DNA from: Bradyrhizobium lablabi
GTDB taxonomy: Bacteria > Pseudomonadota > Alphaproteobacteria > Rhizobiales > Xanthobacteraceae
DNA: 64,000 bases
Reading direction: 5' to 3'
NCBI RefSeq assembly: GCF_900141755.1
Contig: NZ_LT670844.1
Span: forward strand, 2,232,001 to 2,296,000
The notes beneath the pieces were generated by a model that made no database searches, was not told the DNA's origin, and was given only the letters and a program-made list of their open reading frames with translations. The position numbers and the translations under genes were made by a program. Below, piece after piece: positions 43,203 to 60,540 of this stretch; position 1 is the first letter of the stretch, and each line of letters opens with the position of its first letter.

Positions 43203-44333
43203 ATGAGTGACGTAAAAACGTTTCTGAGGGGGTTAGACGAGGCGATCCAGCGGGGGACGCCCGAAAGCCGCATGAAGGCGCTGTGGCATACCACCGATCT
43301 GATGATCACCGGCCGCTATAGCGAGGAAGAGATATGGACCTTCGGCGAGGTGATCGGACGGCTCGCGGATGAGATCGAAGTGGCAACCCGGGCGCAGCTT
43401 TCCAAGCAGCTCGCCCGCTTCGACCAGGCCCCGGTCAATATCATTCACAAGCTTGCCTTCGACGACGAGATCGAAGTCGCAGGACCCGTGCTCCAGGAGT
43501 CCGAGCGATTGGAGCCTTACGCCCTGATCGCCAACGCCTGCCTCAAGAGCCAGACGCATCTGCTCGCGATCTCGAAACGAAAATCGCTCGACGAGACGGT
43601 CACCGACGAACTGGTGACGCGCGGCGATCAGGAGGTCGTGAAGTCGGTCGCTACCAACAACGGCGCGCGTTTCTCGGATTTCGGCTTTCTGCACATGATC
43701 AAGCGCGCCGAAGGCGATTCGATCCTCGCCGAGCAGCTCGGGCTGCGCAAGGACATCCCAAGGCATGTGTTTCAGCAGCTGATCGCCAAAGCGTCGGAAG
43801 ACGTGAGAAAGCGGCTGGAACGCGAGCGGCCCGGCATGGTCGATCAGATTCAGTCCTCGGTGACCGACGTCGCGGGCGAGCTGCAGTCGAAATTCGGCCC
43901 GGTTTCGCGAACCTATTTCGTCGCCAAGCGGGTGGTGGCGACGCAGCACCGGCTGGGCAATTTGAACGAGACCAGCATATCGCTGTACGCGCGGTCTCAT
44001 AAGATCGAAGAGGTCACCATCGGACTGTCCTTGCTGTGCGCGTTGCCGGGCGACGTGATCGAACGGGCCCTGCTGGACAAGAACAGGGAAATGCTCTTGA
44101 TTCTCTGCAAGGCCCTCGATTTTTCGTGGGCGACGACGATGTCGCTGCTGTTCCTTGGCGCCAAGGATCACCGCATCACTGCTCAGGACCTCAGTGACCT
44201 GGAAAAGGAATTCGGCCGCCTCAATCTCGAGACATCCCGCAGCGTTCTGAAATTCTATCAGTCGCGCAAGAATGCCGCGGTTGCCGATTCCAACGCGCGA
44301 CGGCAGTCCACCGCCGCGGGTGCATCGAGATGA
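43203..44333 (+). CDS. DUF2336 family protein (copy 2)
   Basis: 376 residues from the ATG at 43203. Helical throughout, with no signal peptide or membrane segment. It is homologous along its length to the product at 14262-15368; shared blocks include the N-terminal DLxIxGxxSxxxI-type segment (TDLMITGRYSEEEI) and LDFSWATTMSLLFLGAKDHR against IDLSWETTKAILTLQAGRGG. The tail after 360 is basic and disordered. Its stop overlaps the next start (ATGA), so it is cotranslated with the small gene at 44330. Confidence 0.87.
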   Translation: MSDVKTFLRGLDEAIQRGTPESRMKALWHTTDLMITGRYSEEEIWTFGEVIGRLADEIEVATRAQLSKQLARFDQAPVNIIHKLAFDDEIEVAGPVLQESERLEPYALIANACLKSQTHLLAISKRKSLDETVTDELVTRGDQEVVKSVATNNGARFSDFGFLHMIKRAEGDSILAEQLGLRKDIPRHVFQQLIAKASEDVRKRLERERPGMVDQIQSSVTDVAGELQSKFGPVSRTYFVAKRVVATQHRLGNLNETSISLYARSHKIEEVTIGLSLLCALPGDVIERALLDKNREMLLILCKALDFSWATTMSLLFLGAKDHRITAQDLSDLEKEFGRLNLETSRSVLKFYQSRKNAAVADSNARRQSTAAGASR

Positions 44334-44584
44334 GCGATCTGAAATTTGGCGGAGGAGCATCGGCAATGACATTCGGCACAGCCGCTCTTAAACGCCCCGG
44401 CGTCGCATCCGATGAACCGCAGGCGGACAAATCGCTGGATGCGGCATGGCTCGTGCTCGAAGCCGCCAACGATCTCGGCGACCATGCAACCGTCGAAGTG
44501 TGCCGGCGGGTCATCGATGCGGGCCTGAACGGAACACCTGCCTCGCCCTCCGAACTGCAACTCATTCTCGATTATTTCAGATGA
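44330..44584 (+). CDS. small hypothetical protein coupled to DUF2336
   Basis: 84 residues. The start overlaps the DUF2336 stop by four bases, which strongly supports it as a real gene. The C-terminal half is helical and amphipathic (DAAWLVLEAANDLGDHATVE, then VCRRVIDAGLNG) and ends in LILDYFR. No known domain. The tight coupling suggests that it acts with the DUF2336 protein. Confidence 0.75.
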   Translation: MSDLKFGGGASAMTFGTAALKRPGVASDEPQADKSLDAAWLVLEAANDLGDHATVEVCRRVIDAGLNGTPASPSELQLILDYFR

Positions 44585-44796
44585 ATCCGGCGCCGTGCCG
44601 GATTTGCGGACGCCTGCCCTGAAGGCGGACCGGTCCCTGCCCGGCTAACCTCCCCATACGGCCTGGCTCACGACGCTTGCGCGATTGCCGGGGCGTCCCT
44701 ATTTGTCGGTGCCACGCCCGTTTCGATCCGGCCCCCAATCCGCAAAGCCGCGGCCGGCCTCATTTTTCGATTTCCCCAGTGATCATCAAGCCAGGC

Positions 44797-45720
44797 ATGT
44801 CCCCCATTATATCTGTTGCAAATCTGTCGAAAATCTACGGCTCCGGTTTCAAGGCGCTTGACAACATCAACCTGGAAATCCGCCGCGGTGAGATCTTCGC
44901 GCTGCTGGGCCCGAACGGCGCCGGCAAGACCACGCTGATCAGCATCATCTGCGGCATCGCCAATCCGACCCACGGCAAGGTCCTGGTCGACGGCCACGAC
45001 ATCATCAAATCCTATCGCGCGGCGCGATCGCTGATCGGCTTGGTGCCGCAGGAACTGCACACCGACGCTTTCGAATCAGTGTGGGCGACGGTGAGCTTCA
45101 GCCGCGGCCTGTTCGGCAAGCCGAAAAACCCCGCCCATATTGAAAAGGTGCTGAAGGACCTGTCGCTGTGGGACAAGAAGGACGCCAAGATCGTCACTTT
45201 GTCCGGTGGCATGAAGCGCCGGGTGATGATCGCCAAAGCGCTGTCGCACGAACCGCAGATCTTGTTTCTCGATGAGCCGACCGCCGGCGTCGACGTCGAA
45301 CTGCGCAAGGGCATGTGGGAAGTGGTGCGGCAGCTGCAGGCCTCCGGCGTCACCATTATCCTCACCACGCATTACATCGAGGAGGCCGAGGAAATGGCCG
45401 ACCGCATCGGCGTCATCAACAAGGGCGAGATCATCCTGGTCGAGGAGAAAGCCAAGCTGATGGAAAAGCTCGGCAAGAAGCAGTTGAAGCTGCATCTGCA
45501 AGGCAAGATCGATGCGATCCCGTCGGCGCTTACGCCCTATAACCTCGAACTGTCAGATGAAGGCTGCCAGCTGACTTACAATTACGACACCAAGGGCGAG
45601 CGCACCGGCATCACCAGCCTGCTCAGCGACCTCCGCAACGCCGGCATCCGCTTTTCCGATCTCGACACCACCCAGTCGACGCTGGAAGACATCTTCGTCA
45701 GCCTGGTGAGGGCGCCATGA
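44797..45720 (+). CDS. ABC transporter ATP-binding protein (ABC-2 exporter)
   Basis: 307 residues from the ATG at 44797 ([20 protein letters not shown]). Walker [10 protein letters not shown], signature LSGGMKRR and Walker [13 protein letters not shown] are intact, and a C-terminal regulatory extension of about 80 residues follows. The family includes exporters of drugs, polysaccharides and nodulation factors (NodI-like). Its stop overlaps the permease start by four bases, so the two form one export complex. The open frame upstream to 44677 is not needed. Confidence 0.9.
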
Positions 45721-46478
45721 ATTTCAGGGCGGTCCGCGCGATCTATCTGTTCGAAATGGCGCGCACCTGGCGCACGATCCTGCAGAGCATCGTCTCGCCG
45801 GTGGTTTCGACGTCGCTGTATTTCGTGGTGTTCGGCGCGGCAATCGGCTCGCGCATCACCTCGGTCGAAGGCGTCAGTTACGGCACTTTCATCGTGCCGG
45901 GGCTGGTGATGCTGTCGGTCTTGACGCAGAGCATCGCCAACGCCTCGTTCGGCATCTACTTCCCGAAATTCGTCGGCACGATCTACGAATTGCTGTCGGC
46001 GCCGATCTCCTATTTCGAGATCGTGCTCGGCTATGTCGGCGCCGCCGCCACCAAATCCATCGTGCTCGGCCTGATCATCCTCGCCACCGCCGGCCTGTTC
46101 GTGCCGCTGCAGATTCACCATCCCTGGTGGATGCTGACGTTCCTGGTGCTGACCGCGGTGACCTTCAGCCTGTTCGGCTTCATCATCGGCATCTGGGCCG
46201 ACGGTTTCGAAAAACTGCAGATGATCCCGATGCTGGTGGTGACGCCGCTGACCTTCCTCGGCGGCAGTTTTTATTCGGTCAACATGCTGCCCTCGGGCTG
46301 GCGCACCATCACGCTGTTGAACCCGGTGGTCTATCTGATTTCCGGCTTCCGCTGGAGCTTTTACGAGATCGCCGACGTCAGCGTCACCCTGAGCTTCGGC
46401 ATGACGCTGTCGTTCCTCGCCATCTGCATGGTCGTGGTGTGGTGGATCTTTAAGACGGGTTATCGAATCAAGAACTGA
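45717..46478 (+). CDS. ABC-2 type transporter permease
   Basis: 253 residues with six membrane helices in the ABC-2/NodJ arrangement ([60 protein letters not shown]). It is the inner-membrane half of the exporter whose ATPase overlaps it upstream. No outer-membrane or periplasmic partner is adjacent. The exported substrate is unknown. Confidence 0.9.
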
Positions 46479-46487
46479 CGGCGCAGC

Positions 46488-46590
46488 CGTCATTCCGGGG
46501 CGCATCGAAGATGCGAACCTCAGATGTGCAATTGCACATCGGGGAATCTCGAGATTCCGGGTTCGCGCTAACGCGCGCCCCGGAATGACG
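46488..46590. repeat. multi-palindrome repeat after the ABC-2 operon
   Basis: Outer arms CGTCATTCCGGGGCGC (46488-46503) and GCGCCCCGGAATGACG (46575-46590) pair perfectly. Inside are two further perfect palindromes: GATGTGCAATTGCACATC (46523-46540) and GAATCTCGAGATTC (46544-46557). It lies between convergent genes and shares its outer arm and the second inner palindrome with the repeat at 60541-60683. It could end transcription from both sides. Confidence 0.8.
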
Positions 46591-46593
46591 TTG

Positions 46594-46908
46594 CTAGTGG
46601 AAGCAGTGGAAACGATCGTAGCGGTCGTAGTAGCCGCGGCAGCGGTAGCGATGCCCATAGGGAATTCCGAACACCCCATGAATGGCGCCCACCGCGCCGC
46701 CGACACCGGCACCGACGGCGCCGCCAACCACCCCGCCTACCGGGCCGGCAACCCGGTTGCCTTCCGCCGCCCCTTCTTGCGCGCCGCGCACGATGCCTTG
46801 CGTATGACCTGCGCGGGGGATTGCGAGCAATGCGAGGGCAAGGGCCGCGGCCGCAAGGAATTTTGCCGGTAAACCTTCCGGCATCGTTGCCGCCTTGATC
46901 TTGTTCAT
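46594..46908 (-). CDS. exported glycine-zipper protein
   Basis: 104 residues from the ATG at 46908, preceded by AAGGA. A signal peptide (AKFLAAAALALALLAIPRAG) ends near HTQG. The mature part has a glycine-zipper stretch (GPVGGVVGGAVGAGVGGAVG) and an aromatic/basic C-terminus (YRCRGYYDRYDRFHCFH). Such proteins associate with the cell envelope; the function is unknown. Monocistronic. Confidence 0.75.
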   Translation of the reverse strand: MNKIKAATMPEGLPAKFLAAAALALALLAIPRAGHTQGIVRGAQEGAAEGNRVAGPVGGVVGGAVGAGVGGAVGAIHGVFGIPYGHRYRCRGYYDRYDRFHCFH

Positions 46909-47200
46909 CTGAATTCCTTGGTTCTCGGCCGCGATTGCGCCGGTCGTGCGGGAATCTCCAACGCCGATGCGGCTAAATGGTTGCACGACTGTGACGAATT
47001 CGAGTCGGCACGATCCGGCAACACCTCACGAAAAATACCTCGGTCGGCTCGATAACACCCCACGGCCGCCTTGTTGGCGCCCTGCCGCACATTAACGATG
47101 CCCTCAACACGGCGCTGGAACCGAAGCCGAATTCCGGGCATATTGAGCGCGGGGGGACGGAGAGCGTGCTGCAGTCAGGGGCCCGGAGGCCAAGGTAAAG

Positions 47201-48001
47201 ATGCGTTCCTTCCTCGTTGCTTTCGCTGGCCTGATGCTGTTCGCCACCGGCGCCGCGCAGGCAAATGTTTCCATCACCGTCGACAAGAATAGCCAGCAGA
47301 TGACCGTCGCCGTCGATGGCGTCGAGCGCTACCATTGGCCGGTCTCGACCGGCATTCCCTCCTATGAGACGCCGAACGGCAGCTTCCGTACTTTCCGGAT
47401 GGAGGAAGACCACTACTCCAAGGAATTTGACGACGCGCCGATGCCGCACTCGATCTTCTTCACCAAGATCGGACACGCCATTCACGGCACCGATTCCGAA
47501 GCCAAGCTCGGTAGCCCGGCTTCGCACGGCTGCGTGCGGCTGTCGCGCGCCCACGCCGCGACGCTCTATGCGCTGGTGCAGGAGCAAGGCGTGCTCAACA
47601 CCACCGTGACGCTGACCGGCTCATCGCAGATCGCGCTGGCGCGCAATCCGCGACGCGGCGCCAATACCGCCGTCGCGCGCCGTGACCCGGCGCAACAGGA
47701 CGAACAGCTGTACAACTCCGCCGGCGAGCCCATCGTGCTGACGCCGCAACAGCCGGCGCAAGCCCAGTATCCGCAAGAGCGGCCCGATGACGGCTACATC
47801 TATCCGGCCGACGGCAATCCGGACGTGGCGCGCTATCCGGCGCCGCGCAGCGCCAACCGGCGGCTCTACGACGCACAGGCCTATCCGCAGCCTCAGCAGC
47901 GCAATTACTACGACAATCGCGGCTATGCGCCGCAGGCCCAATATCCGCCGCAGGTCTACGCGCCGCGGCCGTATTACCAGCCGCGCGGGTTTTTCAACTG
48001 A
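47201..48001 (+). CDS. L,D-transpeptidase (YkuD family)
   Basis: 266 residues. The signal peptide (MRSFLVAFAGLMLFATGAAQ) is followed by the YkuD catalytic domain (about 22-145) with the active-site motif SHGCVRLS, where Cys is 111 and His 109. The enzyme makes 3-3 peptidoglycan cross-links or attaches proteins to peptidoglycan in the periplasm. The C-terminal 120 residues are Gln/Pro/Tyr-rich and disordered. It precedes the ACP gene by 123 bp on the same strand, which may be coincidence. Confidence 0.9.
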   Translation: MRSFLVAFAGLMLFATGAAQANVSITVDKNSQQMTVAVDGVERYHWPVSTGIPSYETPNGSFRTFRMEEDHYSKEFDDAPMPHSIFFTKIGHAIHGTDSEAKLGSPASHGCVRLSRAHAATLYALVQEQGVLNTTVTLTGSSQIALARNPRRGANTAVARRDPAQQDEQLYNSAGEPIVLTPQQPAQAQYPQERPDDGYIYPADGNPDVARYPAPRSANRRLYDAQAYPQPQQRNYYDNRGYAPQAQYPPQVYAPRPYYQPRGFFN

Positions 48002-48124
48002 CAGGGCGCGCCGGCTTGTTGATCAAGCCCGCCACCCTTCAGCCATCATCCGCCGCCGGTCCGCAAAATTGACATTCCGCGGACCGCCCGTATTGTCACC
48101 ACTCTTCTTTGTTGGTGATCAGAC

Positions 48125-48379
48125 ATGACGCAAGAGCAAATCTCGGAACTTTGTGTTGCTTCGCTGGCCAAGGTCCTGCGCTTGCCTAAGGACCGGGTCG
48201 AGACCGACACAAAATTCAACCGGCTCGGGCTGGACTCGGCGATGGTCGTCTATGTCATGATGGAGCTGGAGGAGAAGCTCGACGTCGAGCTCTCGCCGGA
48301 CGATTTTTACGATCATCCGACCATTATTCAGCTCTCCCGTTTTCTCGCCGAGAAGCTTGCAACGCGTTCTGCCGCTTAA
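48125..48379 (+). CDS. acyl carrier protein
   Basis: 84 residues, the normal size. The phosphopantetheine-attachment motif is LGLDSAMV with Ser 38, and the acidic helix II (MMELEEKLDVELS) is present. It differs from a fatty-acid-synthesis ACP in its basic segment KVLRLPKDRVETDTKFNR. The acyl-AMP ligase starts 31 bp downstream, so the ligase probably charges this carrier. With the MBOAT and SGNH genes it fits the DltC place in a Dlt-like pathway. Confidence 0.93.
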   Translation: MTQEQISELCVASLAKVLRLPKDRVETDTKFNRLGLDSAMVVYVMMELEEKLDVELSPDDFYDHPTIIQLSRFLAEKLATRSAA

Positions 48380-48410
48380 GGGCCTGCGGCCGCCGGGCAT
48401 CGTTACCGAC

Positions 48411-50129
48411 ATGGAAACGTTTTCCTCGCTTGTGACGCTGCTCGCGCATCGCGCGCAATCCCAGCCGGATGACCGTGCCTACCTATTCCTCTCGGACCGC
48501 GGCACGGAAGAAGCCGCTCTGACCTTTCGCGAGTTGCAGGATGCCGCGCAGGCGCTGGCGGCACGGCTGACGAGAATGGCAAAGCCGGGGGACCGCGCCA
48601 TTCTGGTGTTTCCACCCGGCCTCGAATTCCTGGTCGCCTTCTTCGGATGCCTGATCGCGGGGGTGATCGCGGTGCCGATGATGGTGCCGCGCCGGCAGAG
48701 CGCGCGGGATTCCAGTGCCGGGATCATGGCGAATTGCGAGCCGGTGGTCGCGCTTACCAGCCCCGCTTTCGCAATCCGCAGCGATTTGCGGGCCCGGTTC
48801 GCAAGCGAACGGCTGCAGTGGCTCTCGGTCGAGCTGACCCAAATCGGGGACGGCGCGGCCGATCTGCCGCCACCCGCGCCGGAAGCGATCGCGTTTCTGC
48901 AATTTACCTCAGGCTCGACCTCCGATCCCAAGGGGGTCGCGGTCAGCCACGCCAATCTGCTCGCCAATCTGGAAATGATCCGGATCTCGCTCGGCAACAC
49001 CAGGCAATCGACCTATGTCAACTGGGTGCCGCTCTATCACGACATGGGATTGATCCTGAACGCGTTGCAGGCGCTCTATGTCGGCGCGCTCTGCGTCCTG
49101 ATGGCGCCGAACGCATTCATGCAGCGGCCGCTCAACTGGCTGCGGGCGATCCATCATTATCGCGCCGAGGTCGGCTGCAGCCCGAATTTCGGTTTTGACC
49201 TGTGCGTCAGCCGCTATCGCGCCGACCAGATGGAGGGCATCGATCTCTCCTCCTGGAAGGTCGCGCTCAACGGCGCCGAGCCGGTTCACGCCGAAACCAT
49301 AAGACGCTTCAGCGAGACCTTTGCCGGCCACGGTTTTAATCCCAACGCCACCTTCCCGGCCTACGGCATGGCGGAGGCGACCTTGCTGATCGCCGGTGGA
49401 AGGCGGGGCGCGGATCATGTGACGCGGGCCGTCAGCCGATCCGGTCTTCAGGCCCACGCGGTTCGTGCGCCGGTCGACGAATCCGACATTCAGACGCTGG
49501 TGGGCTGCGGCCGCGCGCTTACCGGCGAGCGGATCGCGATCGTCGATCCCGATGACTGCGTTCGATTGCCTTCCGGCCAGGTCGGTGAAATCTGGGTCGA
49601 CGGGCCGAATGTTGCGCGCTTCTATTGGCGCAACACTGAGGCCTCGAAGACCAATTTAAACGCGCAAATCGCGGGCGAAGGCGATGGGGCAAGCTGGCTG
49701 CGAACAGGCGACCTCGGCTTTTTGGATGAAGCCGGCGAATTGTTCATCACCGGCCGGATCAAGGACCTCGTCATTGTCAGAGGCATCAATCATTATCCGC
49801 AGGATATCGAGCACACCGTGCAAGCCTTGCACCCGGCGCTGCGCGAAAATTGCGGCGCGGTATTTTCGGTGACCGACGATGAGGGCGAGGAAATCCTCGT
49901 CGTCGTCCAGGAGATCGAGCGCACCGAGCGCAACCGGATCGATCCGGTTGAAATGACGGGCCTGATCCGCGAAGGGGTGGCGGAGCAGCACGAATTGTTC
50001 GCGCGCCACATCGTGCTGATCAGGCAAGGAAATTTGCCGAAGACCACCAGCGGCAAGATCCAGCGCAGCTTCACGCGCCGGCTGTGGCTCGAAGGACGGC
50101 TCGACGCCATGACGGCGGAAGCCGATTGA
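48411..50129 (+). CDS. fatty acyl-AMP ligase (FAAL-like)
   Basis: 572 residues of the adenylate-forming superfamily. The nucleotide-binding motif FTSGSTSDPKGV is at about 165-176, then YGMAEATL, TGDLGF and GRIKDLVIVRGINHYPQDIE, and the C-terminal catalytic Lys lies in TTSGKIQR. The GINHYPQDIE segment and the N-terminal pattern match ligases that pass fatty acyl-AMP to an ACP rather than to CoA. The gene is 31 bp downstream of the ACP gene. It stops 15 bp from the stop of the SGNH-like gene, which runs the other way. It would fill the DltA place, with a fatty acid instead of D-alanine. Confidence 0.9.
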   Translation: METFSSLVTLLAHRAQSQPDDRAYLFLSDRGTEEAALTFRELQDAAQALAARLTRMAKPGDRAILVFPPGLEFLVAFFGCLIAGVIAVPMMVPRRQSARDSSAGIMANCEPVVALTSPAFAIRSDLRARFASERLQWLSVELTQIGDGAADLPPPAPEAIAFLQFTSGSTSDPKGVAVSHANLLANLEMIRISLGNTRQSTYVNWVPLYHDMGLILNALQALYVGALCVLMAPNAFMQRPLNWLRAIHHYRAEVGCSPNFGFDLCVSRYRADQMEGIDLSSWKVALNGAEPVHAETIRRFSETFAGHGFNPNATFPAYGMAEATLLIAGGRRGADHVTRAVSRSGLQAHAVRAPVDESDIQTLVGCGRALTGERIAIVDPDDCVRLPSGQVGEIWVDGPNVARFYWRNTEASKTNLNAQIAGEGDGASWLRTGDLGFLDEAGELFITGRIKDLVIVRGINHYPQDIEHTVQALHPALRENCGAVFSVTDDEGEEILVVVQEIERTERNRIDPVEMTGLIREGVAEQHELFARHIVLIRQGNLPKTTSGKIQRSFTRRLWLEGRLDAMTAEAD

Positions 50130-50144
50130 TCAGAAATCGATTGA

Positions 50145-51149
50145 TCAAAATTCGATCTTGGCGGCCTCGCCGAGACGAAGGCTCGCGACAATGCCTTCTT
50201 GCACTTTGAGCGCGATTTTCGTCCGGTAATGATTGGTGTCGACGAAGTTCAGGGGATCGCGGGTCAGCGCATTATCGATCCGGTAATCGATCAGATTGCT
50301 ATGCGGCCGACCGGCCACGATGCGCTTGTACGCGGCCTTGCAGGCTTCGCCTTCCGCCGCCTCCCGGCTGCCGGGCCGCGGGACGATCGCATAGAAGATC
50401 GGGGGCATCAGCACCAGTACGGACACGTCAGCCGGAAGCTTTTTGACCGCGCCGTCGAGCAACGTTGCCAGCGGGAAACCATCACTGACCTGGCCCGTGA
50501 ATGCCGGCTCTTCCGCGGGCGTAATCGTTGGGTGCTTATCGCGGGGAAAAACATCCTCGTAGTTGAAGAAGCCGTCCGGCGCGGTGCGCTTCTGCACGCC
50601 ACGGAAGATCATGATCCGTTGATAGGCGTGATTGACCGCGCGCCAGGAGAACAGCCGGCCGGCATAGACCAGCGAGCTGTCGCCGTAGAGCCAGAACGGA
50701 AACGGATTTTTGAGCGGCGGCGCGGGATCGTGGGTGCACCAGGCGGGATCGGTAACGAACACAAGCGCACCGATATGCCGATGATGCCGCACGAAGAAAT
50801 CAAGGATCGCCAGCTGCCCGCGCGGATCGGAGCCAGGCGCGGTCAACTGCACGAAATGGTTGCCGGTCGCCTGCGACAGCTCCGCCGGATTGAGGCGCTG
50901 GCCGGTCGAATTGCCGAAGATCGCGGAATCGAATTGCGGATCGCGCGCCCGGCTGGCATTGGCGGTAACCTCAGTGGAATCGGCGACGCCCACGATGCCG
51001 AGCAGGCCGAACCGCCCGCTGTCATAGGGATCGACGGTGATCATGACGGCCAGCACCAACAGCGCGCCGAGCCCGAGCGCGCCGAGAAAGGCCGCCAGAC
51101 TCCGGCCGCATTGGATGGCGTCGTCAGAACTTGAAATAGACGAATTCAT
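50145..51149 (-). CDS. membrane-anchored SGNH/DltD-AlgJ-like protein
   Basis: 334 residues. One N-terminal membrane helix (about 17-38) places the rest outside the inner membrane. The block FGNSTGQRL (Ser 81) resembles the SGNH nucleophile region, and DTNHYR (Asp 304, His 307) the C-terminal Asp-His pair. These are the hallmarks of proteins that work with MBOAT acyltransferases (DltD, AlgJ/AlgX). It overlaps the MBOAT gene by 26 bp, so translation is coupled. It probably completes or controls acyl transfer to the acceptor. Confidence 0.82.
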   Translation of the reverse strand: MNSSISSSDDAIQCGRSLAAFLGALGLGALLVLAVMITVDPYDSGRFGLLGIVGVADSTEVTANASRARDPQFDSAIFGNSTGQRLNPAELSQATGNHFVQLTAPGSDPRGQLAILDFFVRHHRHIGALVFVTDPAWCTHDPAPPLKNPFPFWLYGDSSLVYAGRLFSWRAVNHAYQRIMIFRGVQKRTAPDGFFNYEDVFPRDKHPTITPAEEPAFTGQVSDGFPLATLLDGAVKKLPADVSVLVLMPPIFYAIVPRPGSREAAEGEACKAAYKRIVAGRPHSNLIDYRIDNALTRDPLNFVDTNHYRTKIALKVQEGIVASLRLGEAAKIEF

Positions 51150-52506
51150 AGACGTCCTGGTCTCCGAGTTCGATCAGTAGCGCCAGCATGGCGATACCCA
51201 GCAAACCGGCCAGCAGCGGTCTCGGCTTGCGGGTCAATAGCGCGATAACGTCCTGGCTCGCCGGCAACAGGCAGGCCGCAAGTGCTGCCACGATGATCGG
51301 CAACAGATGCCTCACCCGGCTCAGATCGGGCAAGGTTCCAAGGCCCTGAAAAACATGCGACGCGGCATCGAGCGTCCCGGCGCGGAAGATCACGCCGGTC
51401 AGCAGCACGACGGCGACGGTCAGCATCCATCCGAGCAGCGCCGGCAGTTTGGGACCAAAGCGGCGCCACAGCGAGCAAACCACCAGCGCCACGCCATGCA
51501 GCGTGCCCCAAAGTACAAACGTCCAGCTCGCGCCGTGCCACAGGCCGCACAGCGCCATGGTCAGAAGCAACGCCGCGAAGTACTGCACGGCGAGATACCG
51601 CCGCGGCAGGATGCGGGCATTGGCGAGCGGGTGAAACACATAGTCGCGCAGAAACAGCATTAGCGTCATGTGCCAGCGCTGCCAGAAATCCTGAATGTTG
51701 GTGGAGCGAAACGGCGCGTTGAAGTTGAACGGCAGTTGGATGCCGAACAAAAGCCCGAGGCCGATCGCGATGTCCGAATAGCCGGCGAAGTCGTAGAAAA
51801 TCTGGAAGCTGAAGCAGAGCGCCAGCCAGGACTCCCCGTCCGGCACCACACCGAGCCTGGCCTGTTCATAGATCGGATCGAGCAGTCTCCCCATCCGGTC
51901 GCCGAGCACGATCTTCTCGAACAGCCCCATCACGATAAAGGTTGTGCCGAGGCAGAACTGGCGCTGCCAGCCGGGCGCATACACTTGCCGGCCAAACTGG
52001 TGCATGACCTCGGACCATCGCGCCAGGGGTCCTGCGATCGCCTGCGGAAAGAACGCGATGTAGAGCGCGTAGCGGGGCAGCGGAAAGGTTGGCGCCTTGC
52101 CGCGCCGCAGATCGACCAGATACATGATGTGATGGAAGGTGAAGAACGAGATGCCGAGCGGCAGCACGATGTCGAAATGAGGCATCGGGCGGCCCAGAAC
52201 CAGGCCAAGATTGGTGGCAAAGAAGTTGGCGTATTTGAACACGCCGAGCACGGCCAGATCGATGACGATCGCGGCGGTCACGATCGCCTTCTGTTTTGTC
52301 CTTTCATAGGCCCGCATCGCCAGCCAGTTGACCAGGATCGACAGCGCCAGCAGCAGGATGAACGGCGGATTCCAGTAGCTGTAGAAGACGAACGACAGCA
52401 GCACCAGCGTCGCGATCCGCAGCCGTGGATGCGGATCGGCAAGGCGATAGAGCAGGATGGCGGCGGGCAGGAAGCCGAGCAGGAACGGATAATCGTTGAA
52501 CAGCAT
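51124..52506 (-). CDS. MBOAT family membrane O-acyltransferase (AlgI/DltB type)
   Basis: 460 residues with about 11 membrane helices. The family core is clear: FFPQAIAGPLARWSEV (153-168), FYDFAGYSDIAIGLGLLFGI (238-257), FWQRWHMTL and CGLWHGASWTFVLWGTLHG, with the conserved His at 324 and a second at 337. AlgI and DltB pass acyl groups from a cytoplasmic carrier to an extracytoplasmic acceptor. It is coupled to the SGNH-like gene and lies opposite the ACP/ligase pair. The desaturase gene is 97 bp upstream on the same strand. Confidence 0.92.
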   Translation of the reverse strand: MLFNDYPFLLGFLPAAILLYRLADPHPRLRIATLVLLSFVFYSYWNPPFILLLALSILVNWLAMRAYERTKQKAIVTAAIVIDLAVLGVFKYANFFATNLGLVLGRPMPHFDIVLPLGISFFTFHHIMYLVDLRRGKAPTFPLPRYALYIAFFPQAIAGPLARWSEVMHQFGRQVYAPGWQRQFCLGTTFIVMGLFEKIVLGDRMGRLLDPIYEQARLGVVPDGESWLALCFSFQIFYDFAGYSDIAIGLGLLFGIQLPFNFNAPFRSTNIQDFWQRWHMTLMLFLRDYVFHPLANARILPRRYLAVQYFAALLLTMALCGLWHGASWTFVLWGTLHGVALVVCSLWRRFGPKLPALLGWMLTVAVVLLTGVIFRAGTLDAASHVFQGLGTLPDLSRVRHLLPIIVAALAACLLPASQDVIALLTRKPRPLLAGLLGIAMLALLIELGDQDVYEFVYFKF

Positions 52507-52602
52507 CGGTCTACGATCCCGGGCATTTCGCCATGTGCGCCTGCTCGCCTTTATTCAAATCGGGCACGCCTGCATCACCGGTTTTCCCGGGAGACTTCTT
52601 GA

Positions 52603-53565
52603 TCACCCGCGTTCGAGTTCGGCCGCTGCTTCGGGTTCTGCCTGGACTTGCTGGCGCGCCCGGCGAAGCGCGATCTTCTCGCGACTGGGGACTTTCACGT
52701 TCCAGGCGAGGCCCGTGAGTTCCAACAGCCGGATCAGCAGAAACCCGGGATCGAATTCGAACCAGCGCAGCCCGAAGGCCGCCGAATAGGGAAAGGCATG
52801 GTGATTATTGTGCCACCCCTCGCCCCACACCAACAGCGCCATCACGCCGAGATTCCGGCTGTGGTCGTCGCGGGTAAAGAACGGCCGCGAGCCAAACGTA
52901 TGCATCACCGAATTGATCGCCGACATCGATTGCTCGACCACGAACATGCGCACGATGCCGCCCCAGAGAAAGCCGGTGAGCGCGCCCCACCAGCTTCCGG
53001 ACACAAGTCCGCCAATCGCGGCGGGGATGAAAAGACCGAGCAGCACCCACGCATAGTATTGTCGATTGACCGCGACCAGCCTGCGCTCCGCCATCAGGTC
53101 CGGGACATAGTGGGCCACGTTCGGGTAATCATGCTCGATCATCCAGGTCAGATGCGCATGCAGGAAGCCCAACAGGCGGCCGAAAAAGGTGGTGCCGTGC
53201 AAATTGGGCGAGTGCAAATCGCCTTCGTGGTCCGAGAGTTCGTGATGCCGCCGGTGCATTGCGACCCACGAAATCATCGGACCGCGTCCCGCCATCGACC
53301 CCATGACGATGAAGATGCAGCTCATCGCCACGCTTGTCGAAAACGCGCGATGGGTGAAGAGACGGTGATAGCCGACCGTCAGGCCAAAACCCGTGATCAG
53401 CCACATGCTGAAGAACAGGCCGATCTCGAGCGCACGGATGGGCCGGTAAAACAACAGGCCCAACGCGATGAGCGTACCGAGAAAGGGCAACACATCGAAA
53501 ATGATAAAATGCCGCCGCTGAATCTTATGAAGATGGCGGCTTCTGATTATCCGAATGTCGCGCAT
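52603..53565 (-). CDS. membrane fatty acid desaturase (acyl-CoA/ACP delta-9 type)
   Basis: 320 residues from the ATG at 53565; no strong Shine-Dalgarno is seen and the frame stays open upstream without a better start. The three His boxes of the membrane di-iron desaturases are HRLFTH (67-72), HRRHH (104-108) and HNNHH near 240, all intact, between four membrane helices. The enzyme introduces a double bond into a saturated acyl chain. It lies 97 bp upstream of the MBOAT gene on the same strand, so it may supply the unsaturated acyl group used by this cluster, or act in ordinary membrane lipids. Confidence 0.88.
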   Translation of the reverse strand: MRDIRIIRSRHLHKIQRRHFIIFDVLPFLGTLIALGLLFYRPIRALEIGLFFSMWLITGFGLTVGYHRLFTHRAFSTSVAMSCIFIVMGSMAGRGPMISWVAMHRRHHELSDHEGDLHSPNLHGTTFFGRLLGFLHAHLTWMIEHDYPNVAHYVPDLMAERRLVAVNRQYYAWVLLGLFIPAAIGGLVSGSWWGALTGFLWGGIVRMFVVEQSMSAINSVMHTFGSRPFFTRDDHSRNLGVMALLVWGEGWHNNHHAFPYSAAFGLRWFEFDPGFLLIRLLELTGLAWNVKVPSREKIALRRARQQVQAEPEAAAELERG

Positions 53566-53929
53566 TTTCGCACAGGCGGGGATTCCGGGAGGGAACAATA
53601 CGATATCAGTACATAGTCCGGTGAGCCGCTGCAACCCAAGCCCGCAGCGGTGGGTCACTGCCTGTGGAACCGTGTCGTGCGGGTGACAGGGCCAGGGGAA
53701 CGGGGACCGTTCAGCGAGCCTCCGGAGGAGCGAAGGCGCGGGCGACGGGTTCGAGCATCTCCGGACTGGTCGTTCGCAGATCGTCGGCCGGCGTATGGAA
53801 AAAGCGATGCAGACCAGCCATGCCGAAAAAATTGGCTTACCCGGCCGCCTGAACGTCGCGCAACTCGCCGAGCGCCTGCTTCTCCGCGACCTGACGCGTC
53901 GCCGACATCGCTGCGGAGGTTTCGCGCGG
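53566..53929. other. intergenic region, no supported gene
   Basis: A 46-codon plus-strand frame at 53795-53935 (MEKAMQTSHAEKIGLPGRLN…) has sensible composition but no clear start signal and runs into the lactonase 3' end, so I do not call it. The promoter of the desaturase gene should lie at the left end. Confidence 0.4.
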
Positions 53930-55183
53930 TCATGACAGGGTGACCATACCGGCCCAGAACTGCTGCTTTTCCGCGGTCGCGTCGATATCGTATTTGCGCA
54001 CGAATTCCAATTTCCCGTCGCCGCCGACGCGGAACATGCTGATCCCTGCAGGAACGACGGTAATATCTGTCCCCTGCCGCGTCGGCATCGGCCAGACTGA
54101 CGCCGCGACGAGAAGATGACCGGTTGGATCGATCCCGAAGGTGCGGAGGTAGTTCGCATGTCCGTCGGCGTTTTGGATCAATGTCGGCTCGCCGGTGGTC
54201 TGGTCGATGGCGAAGACCGCAACCGAGTTCTCGCCGCCCGCGAACACTTTTTTGCCCTCGAAGTCGGTGAGCCAGAAAGCGCGGTTGGTGAGATAGACGA
54301 ACCGTCCGTCAGGACCGACGTGGATCGGGCCTGCGGCCTGCCGTGTCTTTGACGAGGGATCGCTGAGCGTCTCCTTGATGAACAATGGCTCGCGCGAGAT
54401 GCCGGTCGCGGGATCGAGCCTGTAGACAGCAAGCTTGTTTTGGCTCTCGACCGAAACATAGACCCATGGCTGCGTCGGGTGAAAGTCGAGATGCCGCGGC
54501 CCGAACTGCATACCGTCGCCTGGGTGAATCGCCGCGAGGTTTGCGAGCACACCGTTTTTGAAGCTGAAGGTCTTGATCGAGCCCGGGTTCACCGGGTTGT
54601 CGGTCGGCGCGTTGTTGCCACGCGTCACCATGATGACCCGTTGGTTGTCGGGCATGGCGCGGACCTGGTGCGCGTATTTACCGGTGTCGAGCGTATCAGG
54701 TTGATCGACGCGCTCGCCCAGCGAGCCGTCCCCGTTGATGCGATGCACGGTCAGGCCGCTCGGATCGTTGTAGGCGGTCAGCAGAAATTCGCCTGATAGA
54801 TCGACGCTGGTGTGGATCGGACGCGAGGGCAGCGGTAGCGGCCCTCCATGTGGCGTGAGTGCGCCGGTCGAGGGGTCGATCTTGAAGGCGTTCGCGAAAT
54901 GCCTGTCGCCGGCGACACCGGCCGAGCCCGGACCGCCGTTGCTCGAGACGACATATAGAAAACGCTTCGACGGATGCGGCCATGCATATTGGATATTGGC
55001 CGGCATCGACACGGTACCGCGCCTGATGAGGGCGGCTTCATCGACATCAACGCTGTAGAGCGTGAGCTCCGGACCTACCCCTGAATAGAACACGTTTTTC
55101 ACCTTGGCGTTCTGGGCAAACGACACGCCGGGCGCTGCAATGCCGCCGGCAAGAAGCATGGTAAATGTGCGACGGTCGACCAT
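53930..55183 (-). CDS. beta-propeller lactonase family protein, exported
   Basis: 417 residues from the ATG at 55183, preceded by GGAGGAAA. The N-terminus VDRRTFTMLLAGGIAAPGVS is a twin-arginine-like signal ending at FAQ. The mature part is a seven-bladed propeller of the 6-phosphogluconolactonase/YbhE type (FGPRHLDFHPTQPWVYVSVE; AAGPIHVGPDGRFVYLTNRA). It would hydrolyse a sugar lactone in the periplasm. It is the third gene of a unit with the GMC dehydrogenase and its small subunit, which make such lactones. Confidence 0.87.
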   Translation of the reverse strand: MVDRRTFTMLLAGGIAAPGVSFAQNAKVKNVFYSGVGPELTLYSVDVDEAALIRRGTVSMPANIQYAWPHPSKRFLYVVSSNGGPGSAGVAGDRHFANAFKIDPSTGALTPHGGPLPLPSRPIHTSVDLSGEFLLTAYNDPSGLTVHRINGDGSLGERVDQPDTLDTGKYAHQVRAMPDNQRVIMVTRGNNAPTDNPVNPGSIKTFSFKNGVLANLAAIHPGDGMQFGPRHLDFHPTQPWVYVSVESQNKLAVYRLDPATGISREPLFIKETLSDPSSKTRQAAGPIHVGPDGRFVYLTNRAFWLTDFEGKKVFAGGENSVAVFAIDQTTGEPTLIQNADGHANYLRTFGIDPTGHLLVAASVWPMPTRQGTDITVVPAGISMFRVGGDGKLEFVRKYDIDATAEKQQFWAGMVTLS

Positions 55184-55223
55184 GGTTTCCTCCGTTGCAT
55201 ATTTCGATCGCCGCTTTGCGCGG

Positions 55224-55670
55224 TCAGTCCACCACCCGGTACATCGGCGGCCGCTTGCGAACGGGTTCGAGCAGCGACCAGTCGCCCTGCTCGACGACAT
55301 GGCCCTTGGGGAATGGCGAGCGCGGCTCCTGGCCGAGCGAGCGCATCACCCGGTCATCCCGGTAATAGCAAAGCAGCACCACGCGAACCAGCGCGGTCAG
55401 CGCTGCGCCGCCGGCCTCGCGAAACGTTGCGGCTACTTCAGCCCGGCGCGGCGGTTCAAGGTCGGCGAACGCGCCGGCGGCGAGCGCAGTGAGATGCGCC
55501 AGCGCGCGGCAGACATCGTCGCGGTCGCGCTCGAGGCTTCGCAGGATGTCGGCAAAAATCCTCTCATCATCGGCGCCCGGCACGTCATAGGTTGCGCTCG
55601 GAGGGATGATGATGCCGGCCAATGCGCGGAGGTCGCGGACTTGTTCGGCAGTGAGGTCATGGTTTGGCAT
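55224..55670 (-). CDS. gluconate 2-dehydrogenase subunit 3 family protein
   Basis: 148 residues. LTAEQVRDLRALAGIIIPPS is the typical opening of the small (gamma) subunit of membrane-bound sugar/gluconate dehydrogenases, followed by a helical body. No twin-arginine signal is visible, although the small subunit often carries the export signal for the GMC partner. It lies 9 bp downstream of the GMC gene and 40 bp upstream of the lactonase gene. Confidence 0.83.
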   Translation of the reverse strand: MPNHDLTAEQVRDLRALAGIIIPPSATYDVPGADDERIFADILRSLERDRDDVCRALAHLTALAAGAFADLEPPRRAEVAATFREAGGAALTALVRVVLLCYYRDDRVMRSLGQEPRSPFPKGHVVEQGDWSLLEPVRKRPPMYRVVD

Positions 55671-55679
55671 GTCGATCTC

Positions 55680-57278
55680 TCAGTCGAACAAATCAGCGAG
55701 GCGCTGCTTGATGCTGTCGGCAATGTAGAGCGCCAACGCCTGGATGGTGGAGGTCGGGTTGACCCCGCCGGAAGTCACCCAGATGCTGCCATCGACGATG
55801 AACAGGTTTTTGACGTCATGGCAGCGGCCCCACCCGTTGACCACCGAACGCTCGGGATCGGTGCCCATCCGCGCGGTGCCGAGCAGATGCCAGCCGCCGT
55901 TCAGAATCGGGCTCTCGACGCAGATATTGCTGGCGCCGGCGGCAGTCAGGATTTCCCTCGCCCGCGCAATGCCGTGCTGCATCATCTTATGGCTGTTGGC
56001 GCTGATGGTGTAATCGATCTTCGGCGCCGGGATGCCGCTGGAATCTTTCAGGTCAGGATCGAGCGTGACGCGGTTGTGCTCCTCCGGGAGGTCCTCGCAG
56101 ATTGCGGACAGGCCGATGCGGCGGTTCACGAGCTTGCGGTAGGCTCCGTGATGCTCCTCGCCCCAGGGCAGCCTCCCCGCAGCCGAACTGACGATCGCCT
56201 CGAAGATCGAGCCGACGCCGCGGCCGAACTGAAAGGTATAGCCGCGCACGAAATCGCGCCTGGAATCGGTCTCATAAAATTGCTGGCTCCAGAGACATAA
56301 AGGCGGGCCATGATTGCCGTCGAGCGGTTCATCGACATAGCCGTAGTTCAGGGCGTAGGGATGAAACATCAGGTTCTTGCCGACCAGGCCTGAAGAATTG
56401 GCGATGCCGTTGGGAAATTTCGCCGACACCGAATTGAGCATCAGCCGCGGCGTGCCGACGCCGTTGCAGGCGAGGATGACGATTTCGGCTGGCTGAAAAT
56501 GCTCTTTGCCTTCGGCATCGTAGTAGATCACACCCGAGGCCATGCCCTGCGCGTCGACCGTGATTTCGCGCACCCGGCACCGCGTGCGCAATTCGACGCC
56601 GGCGCGGATCGCAAGCGGCCAATAGGTGATGTCGGTAGAAGCCTTGGCGCCCTGCGCGCAGCCCGGCGTGCAGTGGCCGAGATTGATGCAGCGCCCGCGT
56701 CCCTCGTAGTCGGTAGTAGCGATGGTGGTGTCGGATGGCCACCAGTGCCAGCCCAACTCGTTCATCGCCTTGCCGAAGCGCGTGCCGGATTTACCGAGCG
56801 GCAATGGCGGCATCGGCGGCTGCTTCGGCGGATAAGCGGGATCGCCGGCGAGACCGGAGACGCCCATCATGCGGTCGTTCTCGGCGAAATAGGGCTCCAA
56901 TGTCGCGTAGTCGATCGGCCAGTCGTCGGCGACGCCGTCGAGCGTCCGCACCTTGAAGTCCGAGGGGTGCAGACGCGGAAAATGCGCGGTGTACATGATG
57001 GTGCTGCCGCCGACGCCGTTGAAATTCACCACCTTGATCGGCGAATTGGAATCGTTGATCGGGTAATCGGTCGGCCGGGCGCGGCGGTTGGGATTGATGG
57101 CGAAATCGGAAAACAGCCGCGCCTCCCAGTCCCGGCCATTGCTGGGATAGTCGGTCGGCTTCACCCAGTCGCCCTGCTCGAGGCAGAGAATCCGCATTCG
57201 GGTGTCGGCAAGGCTCCACGCCACGGCGGCGCCCGATGCCCCGGAACCGATGATCAGGACATCGACCTTGTCGTGCAT
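55680..57278 (-). CDS. GMC family FAD oxidoreductase
   Basis: 532 residues. The FAD-binding motif GSGASGAAVAW starts at about residue 11. The GMC C-terminal signature has the catalytic His in GGWHLLGTARMG and the Asn in GGVNPTSTIQAL, both intact. It is the large subunit of a sugar or gluconate dehydrogenase; with the 148-residue subunit 3 it would oxidise a sugar to a lactone or keto acid. The usual third subunit, a tri-haem cytochrome c, is not encoded here. No signal peptide is seen on this chain. Confidence 0.9.
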   Translation of the reverse strand: MHDKVDVLIIGSGASGAAVAWSLADTRMRILCLEQGDWVKPTDYPSNGRDWEARLFSDFAINPNRRARPTDYPINDSNSPIKVVNFNGVGGSTIMYTAHFPRLHPSDFKVRTLDGVADDWPIDYATLEPYFAENDRMMGVSGLAGDPAYPPKQPPMPPLPLGKSGTRFGKAMNELGWHWWPSDTTIATTDYEGRGRCINLGHCTPGCAQGAKASTDITYWPLAIRAGVELRTRCRVREITVDAQGMASGVIYYDAEGKEHFQPAEIVILACNGVGTPRLMLNSVSAKFPNGIANSSGLVGKNLMFHPYALNYGYVDEPLDGNHGPPLCLWSQQFYETDSRRDFVRGYTFQFGRGVGSIFEAIVSSAAGRLPWGEEHHGAYRKLVNRRIGLSAICEDLPEEHNRVTLDPDLKDSSGIPAPKIDYTISANSHKMMQHGIARAREILTAAGASNICVESPILNGGWHLLGTARMGTDPERSVVNGWGRCHDVKNLFIVDGSIWVTSGGVNPTSTIQALALYIADSIKQRLADLFD

Positions 57279-57499
57279 CGGATTTCCGTGCCCCTGAGTC
57301 TATTGGATGGATAGACGGTCGGCGCTTGCTTGACCGCGCTCCGATCGATTCCAGCACGACAACATCCCGTCGGCAAAGCTCGATTGCAAGCCCTTTCATC
57401 GCATGGTAGCGCCGCCCGTCCCGAGTGGCGGACCGAACCATCCTGACAGCCGACGACACCAACGCGCAGACAGATCACCTCCGGGAGCAAGGACTGCAG

Positions 57500-58063
57500 A
57501 TGAGTAACTCTATGCCCGATCGAATGACGGTGACATTTGCAATGACCGCCGACGATTACGCGCGTTACTTCGCCGTTCGCAGCCGGCGCGCGTCCCGATG
57601 GGCGAACTTTCTCGCTTATGCCGCGGCGTTGTTTGCTGCGATCCCGGTTGCGCTGATGTTCCGATTGATCGGAGCGCGCCAGTCCGCCAGCGCCGCAACG
57701 ATCGATTTGATCGGCCAATTCAGCCTGGCGTCATTCCTGCTTGGTACAGTCGCGATAGTCGCCGCCGGCATTTTCCTGCGTCGAAAGTCGATCAATACAT
57801 TAGTGGCTGGAACGCTCAACGCGTTCGAGCCGAAGACCGCCGTCTTCGATGCGACGGGGATTACCCTGACTGGCCAGCTGTCGCAGGCGATGTGGCGGTG
57901 GGCCGCCATCAGCGGGTTTACGAGTGAAAAAGGCTTGCTGCTGATCTGGATCGGGCAGTCAAACGCGGTGGCGATCCCCCTGCGCGCTTTTGGAGACGAT
58001 AGTGCATGGGAGGCGGCGAAAGCATTTCTCCGCACACAGCTGTCGGGGGCGCGCCCAGCCTAA
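57500..58063 (+). CDS. small membrane protein, YcxB-like
   Basis: 187 residues from the ATG at 57500, preceded by AAGGA. Residues 5-25 (MTVTFAMTADDYARYFAVRS) and the C-terminal block (PKTAVFDATGITLTGQLSQA; AFGDDSAWEAAKAFLRTQL) match the YcxB-like pattern, with two membrane helices between them (about 36-56 and 73-95). The function of the family is unknown. Divergent from the GMC operon; its stop lies 24 bp from the stop of the convergent spermidine-synthase-like gene. Confidence 0.72.
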   Translation: MSNSMPDRMTVTFAMTADDYARYFAVRSRRASRWANFLAYAAALFAAIPVALMFRLIGARQSASAATIDLIGQFSLASFLLGTVAIVAAGIFLRRKSINTLVAGTLNAFEPKTAVFDATGITLTGQLSQAMWRWAAISGFTSEKGLLLIWIGQSNAVAIPLRAFGDDSAWEAAKAFLRTQLSGARPA

Positions 58064-60370: not shown

Positions 60371-60540
60371 AAAAGCTCCGGCTTGAACCCGGCGGGCGCC
60401 GGTGGCTGGATTTTCCGGCGGGGTTCCTGCCGGCGCGCGCAATGGAGCATAGTGCGGCGCGGCGGGCAATGCGGGGACGCGGAACCGTCATCGGCAATTG
60501 GTGCTGGGCTGATGTTCACATCTTCGCTAAGCATTGGCAT

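Follow-up and report, generated by a model that had tools for sequence, protein, structure and literature searches.

A Bradyrhizobium gene cassette that may link a fatty acyl-AMP ligase and its carrier protein to an MBOAT-SGNH acylation relay

The stretch of DNA analysed here (referred to below as the window) comprises 64,000 nt of Bradyrhizobium lablabi contig NZ_LT670844.1 (assembly GCF_900141755.1, positions 2,232,001-2,296,000); all positions given are window positions unless a locus is named. At 48125-53565, it carries a cassette of five genes that forms a single unit, encoding an acyl carrier protein (ACP), a fatty acyl-AMP ligase (FAAL), an SGNH protein, an MBOAT acyltransferase and a desaturase. 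We propose, with a probability of roughly 0.58, that this cassette specifies an envelope acylation relay of the Dlt/Pat kind that transfers fatty acyl groups and is fed by a carrier protein. The original prediction for this DNA, made from the sequence alone, had named the same five genes as a Dlt-like acyl-export cluster. Gene coordinates, family assignments and co-occurrence throughout the genus bear out the gene list; the broader interpretation is supported in part, as the kind of ligase, the likeness of the MBOAT/SGNH pair to known systems and the co-occurrence all hold, while a hint taken from a neighbouring L,D-transpeptidase gene does not.

Gene content and co-occurrence of the cassette

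The window cassette consists of two convergent transcription units. The plus strand encodes a stand-alone ACP of 84 amino acids (aa) (48125-48379; Pfam PP-binding, E = 1.3e-16), with the phosphopantetheine serine, Ser38, at 48236-48238, followed by the 572 aa FAAL (48411-50129). On the minus strand lie the genes for a 320 aa membrane fatty acid desaturase (52603-53565; Pfam FA_desaturase, 6.2e-19; His boxes HRLFTH, HRRHH and HNNHH), the 460 aa MBOAT protein (51124-52506; Pfam MBOAT, 2.1e-18) and the 334 aa SGNH protein (50145-51149). The SGNH and MBOAT reading frames share 26 bp, and the stop codons of the FAAL and SGNH genes are 15 bp apart.

The five genes occur together across the genus. 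Using thresholds of E<=1e-40 for SGNH, E<=1e-140 for FAAL and E<=1e-70 for the desaturase, SGNH relatives were found in 43 of 265 Bradyrhizobium genomes, FAAL in the identical 43 and the desaturase in 42 of these; at the same thresholds, no genome among the 265 has FAAL or desaturase without SGNH. In the desaturase-less genome (G820), the contig ends 1.6 kb from the start of the SGNH gene, in the direction of the expected desaturase position. The MBOAT, SGNH and FAAL genes are contiguous in all 30 loci read from the 42 genomes besides that of the window, and the order desaturase, MBOAT, SGNH, FAAL, ACP is fixed in 13 longer loci (12 without a duplicate, as L018 and L041 are one contig). The plus-strand pair and the minus-strand trio, which the original prediction had taken to belong together, thus share both genome sets and position.

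Outside the genus, a contig from a Rhodospirillales metagenome-assembled genome (L027) encodes MBOAT (60% identity), SGNH (39%), ACP (32%) and FAAL (58%) relatives on a single strand, in the order MBOAT-SGNH-ACP-FAAL. Searches at phylum and class level were samples (398 genomes for FAAL, 364 for the desaturase and 385 for MBOAT, mostly with 1.5 kb flanks read), and since only the places fetched were read, further cassettes may exist elsewhere. Four of 50 listed plasmid matches were opened; the three that are annotated have no FAAL beside an MBOAT gene, and the fourth carries no gene annotation. A FAAL copy in G795 (contig C95:89590-91290) contains one in-frame TGA and is either a pseudogene or an assembly error.

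The MBOAT-SGNH pair and its exchangeable module

No Pfam or NCBIfam model matches the SGNH protein. In Foldseek, the best match of its AlphaFold2 model (pLDDT [predicted local distance difference test] of 92.8) is DltD (6pfx; E = 3.1e-4), and in 48 sequences Ser81 (50907-50909) and His307 (50229-50231) are invariant and Asp304 (50238-50240) is nearly so. From this model and these residues, the protein is predicted to be a membrane-anchored acyltransferase-like protein. The MBOAT protein scores 193 bits with the DltB model TIGR04091, below the cut-off of 375, but retains the MBOAT fold and a catalytic histidine (His324, 51535-51537). Its residues 385-460 (51127-51354) form two helices past the DltB-like core and a terminal FVYFKF motif containing the shuttle residue Tyr457 (51136-51138); such a C-terminal FxYxxF shuttle is present in 32 of 32 distinct cassette MBOATs. 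The MBOAT motif counts have no entry for L031 and L043, which yielded no match; excluding the second MBOAT of L019 lowered the total from 34 to 33, and treating L005 and L018 as one gene with two open reading frame starts lowered it to 32. Eight more pairs of loci with identical MBOATs were likewise counted once. By predicted fold and conserved residues, the pair is Dlt/Pat-like, in keeping with its earlier description as Dlt-like, and it is very likely to function as an acyl relay.

Comparison among close relatives shows, at the level of sequence, that SGNH and the last ~75 residues of MBOAT form an exchangeable module, the rest of the cassette being about equally similar between and within types. 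In an SGNH tree of 31 loci, these relatives split into two types of 7 and 13 loci. The comparison of types covers these 20 loci, to which the tree adds L107 as a 21st; the cassettes of the remaining ten, that of the window among them, are more distant and were set apart. L027 (owing to its in-frame stop), L031 and L034 are not part of alignment A2. Mean SGNH identity is 48.5% between types vs 79% and 87% within them, and for MBOAT residues 371-454 it is 73% between vs 85% and 89% within. FAAL and MBOAT residues 1-370 behave differently, with 85% between vs 85% and 87% within for the former, and 90% between vs 90% and 91% within for the latter. The same pattern is seen in the DNA of L016 and L039, which is mostly 87-94% identical through the desaturase gene and most of the MBOAT gene, falls to ~50-67% across most of the SGNH gene (the conserved end reaching 78%) and rises again to 94% in the FAAL gene; pairs of the same type have no such drop, their lowest values being 73-82% (L021/L038). 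The module edge lies near MBOAT residue 390, only a few residues from where the DltB-like core ends (384).

The trees agree with this pattern. On the FAAL tree, type I requires five changes, the type label is barely clustered (108 of 500 shuffles are as low) and a constraint to a single clade is rejected by the approximately unbiased (AU) test (p-AU 0.0027), although this test was not fully blind, as the types were read from the SGNH tree with the FAAL tree visible alongside. Over all 31 loci, MBOAT distances correlate with FAAL distances at rho 0.82, and SGNH distances at rho 0.27. Taken together, the identities and trees indicate that the shuttle end of MBOAT and SGNH move jointly while the donor half stays in place. 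The window SGNH belongs to neither type (58% identical to type I and 52% to type II).

Exchange of this kind would make a strain-variable surface glycan (O-antigen, capsule or exopolysaccharide) the most likely acceptor, although we make this assignment tentatively. The original prediction had left the acceptor among polysaccharide, hopanoid, lipid A and peptidoglycan glycan; the exchange favours the first kind without deciding the matter. The same relay could instead serve a fixed acceptor (lipid A, hopanoid, peptidoglycan or periplasmic glucan), with the two SGNH types as ancient alleles maintained by something else, for instance pressure on SGNH itself. This would suit the distribution of differences within SGNH, where the catalytic blocks are kept between types (0.71 and 0.74) and strong differences are found only in outer parts, mostly residues 126-175 and 201-275 (0.21-0.42), and there is precedent in PatAB, which works on peptidoglycan according to the PubMed Central (PMC) article PMC12148441. 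By itself, however, a fixed acceptor leaves unexplained why the MBOAT shuttle end and SGNH are exchanged together without FAAL and the MBOAT core, and we consider it unlikely.

MBOAT/SGNH pairs also occur in other surroundings. Four loci from Alphaproteobacteria (L085, L089, L090 and L091) have such a pair beside an LptF/LptG-like gene (identified by Pfam in L085 only and by eye in the rest), with no FAAL in their 1.5 kb flanks; where the other flank is long enough, it carries an M17 aminopeptidase-like gene (identified by Pfam in L089 only, the rest by eye). Their LptF/LptG-like neighbour, related to lipopolysaccharide (LPS) export, suggests an LPS modification system. In L024 (8567-12714), the pair (SGNH 43% identical) is followed by a 577 aa gene resembling, by eye, a carbamoyltransferase.

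The donor half and its proposed coupling to MBOAT

The ligase (Pfam AMP-binding, 2.4e-66) matches the NCBIfam fatty-acid--AMP ligase model PRK05850 best among models of ordinary length (436 bits, under the cut-off of 775), vs 308 bits for PRK07768 (named as a CoA ligase) and 184 bits for the long-chain-fatty-acid--CoA ligase model PRK06187. FadD32, FadD23 and FadD28 are among its PDB relatives, of which the highest-ranking are deposited as polyketide synthase. Approximately 20 residues following YGMAE, which we take to be the FAAL-specific insertion, are present in three FAAL-like sequences (shorter in one) and missing from the acyl-CoA ligase-like protein of L024. Family, structural relatives and this extra stretch all point to a ligase of the fatty-acid type, as the original prediction had it. 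D-alanylation was set aside, since the ligase matches FAAL models and structures; no DltA model is among its best 25 NCBIfam matches. The closest solved relatives of the ACP include both stand-alone carrier proteins and those of polyketide synthases (PKS) and nonribosomal peptide synthetases (NRPS). From its family, we predict with high confidence that the FAAL loads the cassette ACP.

The desaturase is 53% identical to one encoded on a Thalassospira marina plasmid (L130), the closest relative found outside the genus, where an ACP gene follows directly and a FAAL gene lies 3.4 kb further on. Identity is 44% to a desaturase in G394 (with no FAAL recognised within the 19 kb read), 40% to a pair beside FAAL in G209, and 36% and 28% to two paralogues in the genome of the window. 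As the closest outside relative sits beside an ACP gene in a FAAL cluster, action of the desaturase on the ACP-bound chain would be favoured. The desaturase tree places the protein loosely near FAAL-cluster desaturases but is weak (one of ten inner branches starred), so that this step can be called likely only in a guarded sense, at about even odds. The original prediction had FAAL loading a fatty acid perhaps made unsaturated by the desaturase; the kind of ligase stands, and the T. marina relative would shift desaturation to the ACP-bound chain.

FAAL, desaturase and ACP genes in one locus are also the three gene kinds of the jamABC alkyne cassette, as described in passages of PMC8406139, and correspond to the screening rule for alkyne cassettes given there, so surveys of that kind may count the cassette described here. 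An enzyme set of this sort could supply the unsaturated or alkynyl acyl group of a secreted lipid or glycolipid of small size, with MBOAT and SGNH acting in tailoring or release, and the location of the closest desaturase in a FAAL/desaturase/ACP cluster fits such a role; the ACP of that cluster is only 30% identical to the window ACP over 43 residues. Unlike jamABC, however, the cassette is joined to MBOAT and SGNH (its desaturase may form either a double or a triple bond), window positions 44000-58000 showed no PKS or NRPS gene, and a membrane MBOAT with an FxYxxF shuttle together with an anchored SGNH protein is the published layout for envelope polymers. We therefore regard a small-molecule role as quite improbable.

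A candidate site for coupling the donor half to the carrier-fed relay lies in MBOAT residues 287-305 (51592-51648), opposite helix HC of DltB, where the carrier docks. Passages of PMC11035591 give Met302, Val305, Ile306, Met309 and Lys312 of this helix as contacts of DltC; by spacing, and in a numbering match of our own, these fit the DltB stretch facing the window MBOAT just after RDYVF. A GG(N/S/K) motif at this segment is absent from all 32 distinct cassette MBOATs, that of L027 among them, and present in 27 of 28 others, for which no FAAL was seen nearby (many with only 1.5 kb of flank read). The span from W-x-RWH to WHG is 50-51 residues in cassette MBOATs, 46 in the 27 others with the motif and 53 in DltB. 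As a carrier-docking site, this segment is a lead and not proof; overall, it is probable that the cassette ACP feeds MBOAT.

Several observations weigh against a carrier-fed relay. In L086, the GG motif is retained although an ACP gene adjoins the MBOAT/SGNH pair, so the motif is not a clean marker of carrier use, and L082 is without the motif on a 4.1 kb contig too short to look for FAAL. Whole-protein DltB scores overlap (171-193 bits for cassette MBOATs vs 147-176 for others). L027 has no desaturase on its 7.5 kb contig, and its SGNH gene contains one in-frame TAG in that assembly. The SGNH family is broader than the cassette: 10 of 22 loci have FAAL and 12 have none inside the flanks read, three of the latter at 42-43% SGNH identity and seven with an MBOAT detectable using that of the window. 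FAAL and ACP also occur without a nearby MBOAT in T. marina and in G052, whose FAAL region stops at a contig end right after ACP; among seven FAAL regions opened wider (G052 being cut by this contig end), none has an MBOAT recognised by the window MBOAT. Lastly, the window MBOAT bears a self-shuttle of the acyl-CoA-fed kind, and PMC12148441 describes MBOAT/SGNH pathways other than Dlt as carrier-less and evidently acyl-CoA-fed.

Two separate neighbouring systems, with FAAL and ACP serving another pathway and MBOAT/SGNH using acyl-CoA like PatAB, would agree with the convergent transcription units, the PatA-like C-terminal shuttle, the carrier-less pathways of PMC12148441 and the FAAL and ACP genes found without MBOAT, but the identical genome sets within the genus, the one-strand arrangement in L027 and the distinct docking segment of cassette MBOATs make this explanation very improbable.

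The whole-protein DltB score was rejected as a test of carrier use because it does not separate the groups. The ACP gene of L086 (3993-4313; PP-binding, 1.5e-6) is convergent to the MBOAT/SGNH pair and may belong to another carrier-fed system.

In the scheme that we infer for the carrier-fed relay, FAAL would activate a fatty acid as acyl-AMP in the cytoplasm and load it onto ACP, and the desaturase would add a double bond, most likely on the ACP-bound chain. Acyl-ACP would dock on MBOAT where DltB accepts DltC. By analogy with the mechanisms published for Pat and Dlt, and from the residues and folds, His324 would then pass the chain over the membrane to Tyr457 of MBOAT's own shuttle, and Ser81 of SGNH would receive it and esterify an envelope acceptor, the best candidate being a surface glycan that varies between strains (O-antigen, capsule or exopolysaccharide, for example).

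Genomic setting and relation to known systems

In 11 loci, that of the window and ten more, the cassette lies between the L,D-transpeptidase gene and the match of window positions 58088-60469; L019 is the exception to this shared insertion site. The cassette is absent from this interval in seven of seven cassette-negative loci opened: L129 has 57 bp between the L,D-transpeptidase stop codon and the downstream gene and represents an empty site, and in L123, L126 and L128, which were read in detail, the interval is filled by other genes. The original prediction took the adjoining L,D-transpeptidase as a hint of an envelope function. This does not hold, as the transpeptidase is a core gene found in eight of eight cassette-negative genomes tested, and the L019 cassette lies elsewhere without it. 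The transpeptidase and an ABC transporter were rejected as cassette parts on these grounds, transporter genes being beside the transpeptidase in all seven opened negative loci and L129 being an empty site.

In Bradyrhizobium sp. dw_78 (L019), the cassette is relocated, 1.2 kb from a phage terminase gene (Terminase_3); the nearby region (L019:14209-17537) contains this gene, a second MBOAT gene and then a 299 aa gene of unknown kind. The cassette has a GC content of 61.7%, vs 62.4% for the window, and FAAL, MBOAT and desaturase distances track those of flanking genes (rho 0.62 to 0.90; 10-11 of 12 loci), suggesting that at this site the cassette has for the most part been inherited along with the chromosome, a history compatible with either many losses or old gains. 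Between the cassette and the downstream core gene, window positions 53930-57278 carry a small gene flanked by genes for a 7-bladed lactonase and a GMC oxidoreductase. This block is unmatched in the other loci compared and constitutes a second variable block at the same site.

The cassette shares with Dlt (DltA, DltC, DltB, DltX and DltD; D-alanylation of teichoic acid) a carrier protein encoded with MBOAT and SGNH, as seen in the 13 long loci (12 without the duplicate) and in L027. It differs in its fatty-acid kind of ligase, its added desaturase and its Gram-negative host, and in that the Dlt shuttle resides on the DltX microprotein, whereas in the cassette, as in PatA, the MBOAT itself carries the motif at its C-terminus (microproteins were not searched for). 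Given the kind of ligase and a DltB score under the cut-off, it is not Dlt in the narrow sense. The Bordetella dra locus, a carrier-fed Gram-negative D-alanylation pathway that our literature search did not bring up, would share a carrier-fed MBOAT/SGNH pair in a Gram-negative host, with D-alanine and not a fatty acid; Gram-negative D-alanylation was not met in passages of PMC11279074. With PatA/PatB, AlgI/AlgJ/AlgX, WssH/I and CcsH/I, as listed in PMC12148441, the cassette shares an MBOAT with a C-terminal FxYxxF motif and histidine and a separate Ser-Asp-His SGNH protein. According to the same article, Pat-type pairs use acetyl-CoA and are carrier-less, whereas the cassette adds ACP, FAAL and desaturase, along with the altered MBOAT segment facing DltB helix HC.

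Within the open-access (PMC) literature, we found no description of a pathway of this make-up, no paper on FAAL together with MBOAT or on FAAL with an O-acyltransferase and polysaccharide, and nothing on FAAL and Bradyrhizobium beyond an unrelated review; the FAAL review PMC11837247 contains neither the word O-acyltransferase nor the word polysaccharide. We file the cassette as a variant of MBOAT-SGNH envelope acylation that combines Dlt and Pat, exceeding Pat by its own carrier, ligase and desaturase. It is conceivable, though somewhat doubtful, that it represents a new class of Gram-negative carrier-fed envelope acylation exporting unsaturated (perhaps alkynyl) acyl groups, in which a constant donor half (desaturase, FAAL, ACP and MBOAT core) would be combined with a swappable acceptor half (MBOAT shuttle helices and SGNH) that retargets surface glycans.

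If the proposed relay is correct, the Dlt/Pat mechanism would extend beyond acetyl and D-alanyl groups to a fatty chain transferred by way of MBOAT to a surface polymer. Sibling cassettes whose main differences lie in the SGNH gene and the C-terminal end of MBOAT would then provide a natural experiment on acceptor choice, and it would become possible to test directly whether plant-associated bacteria lipidate their surface glycans.

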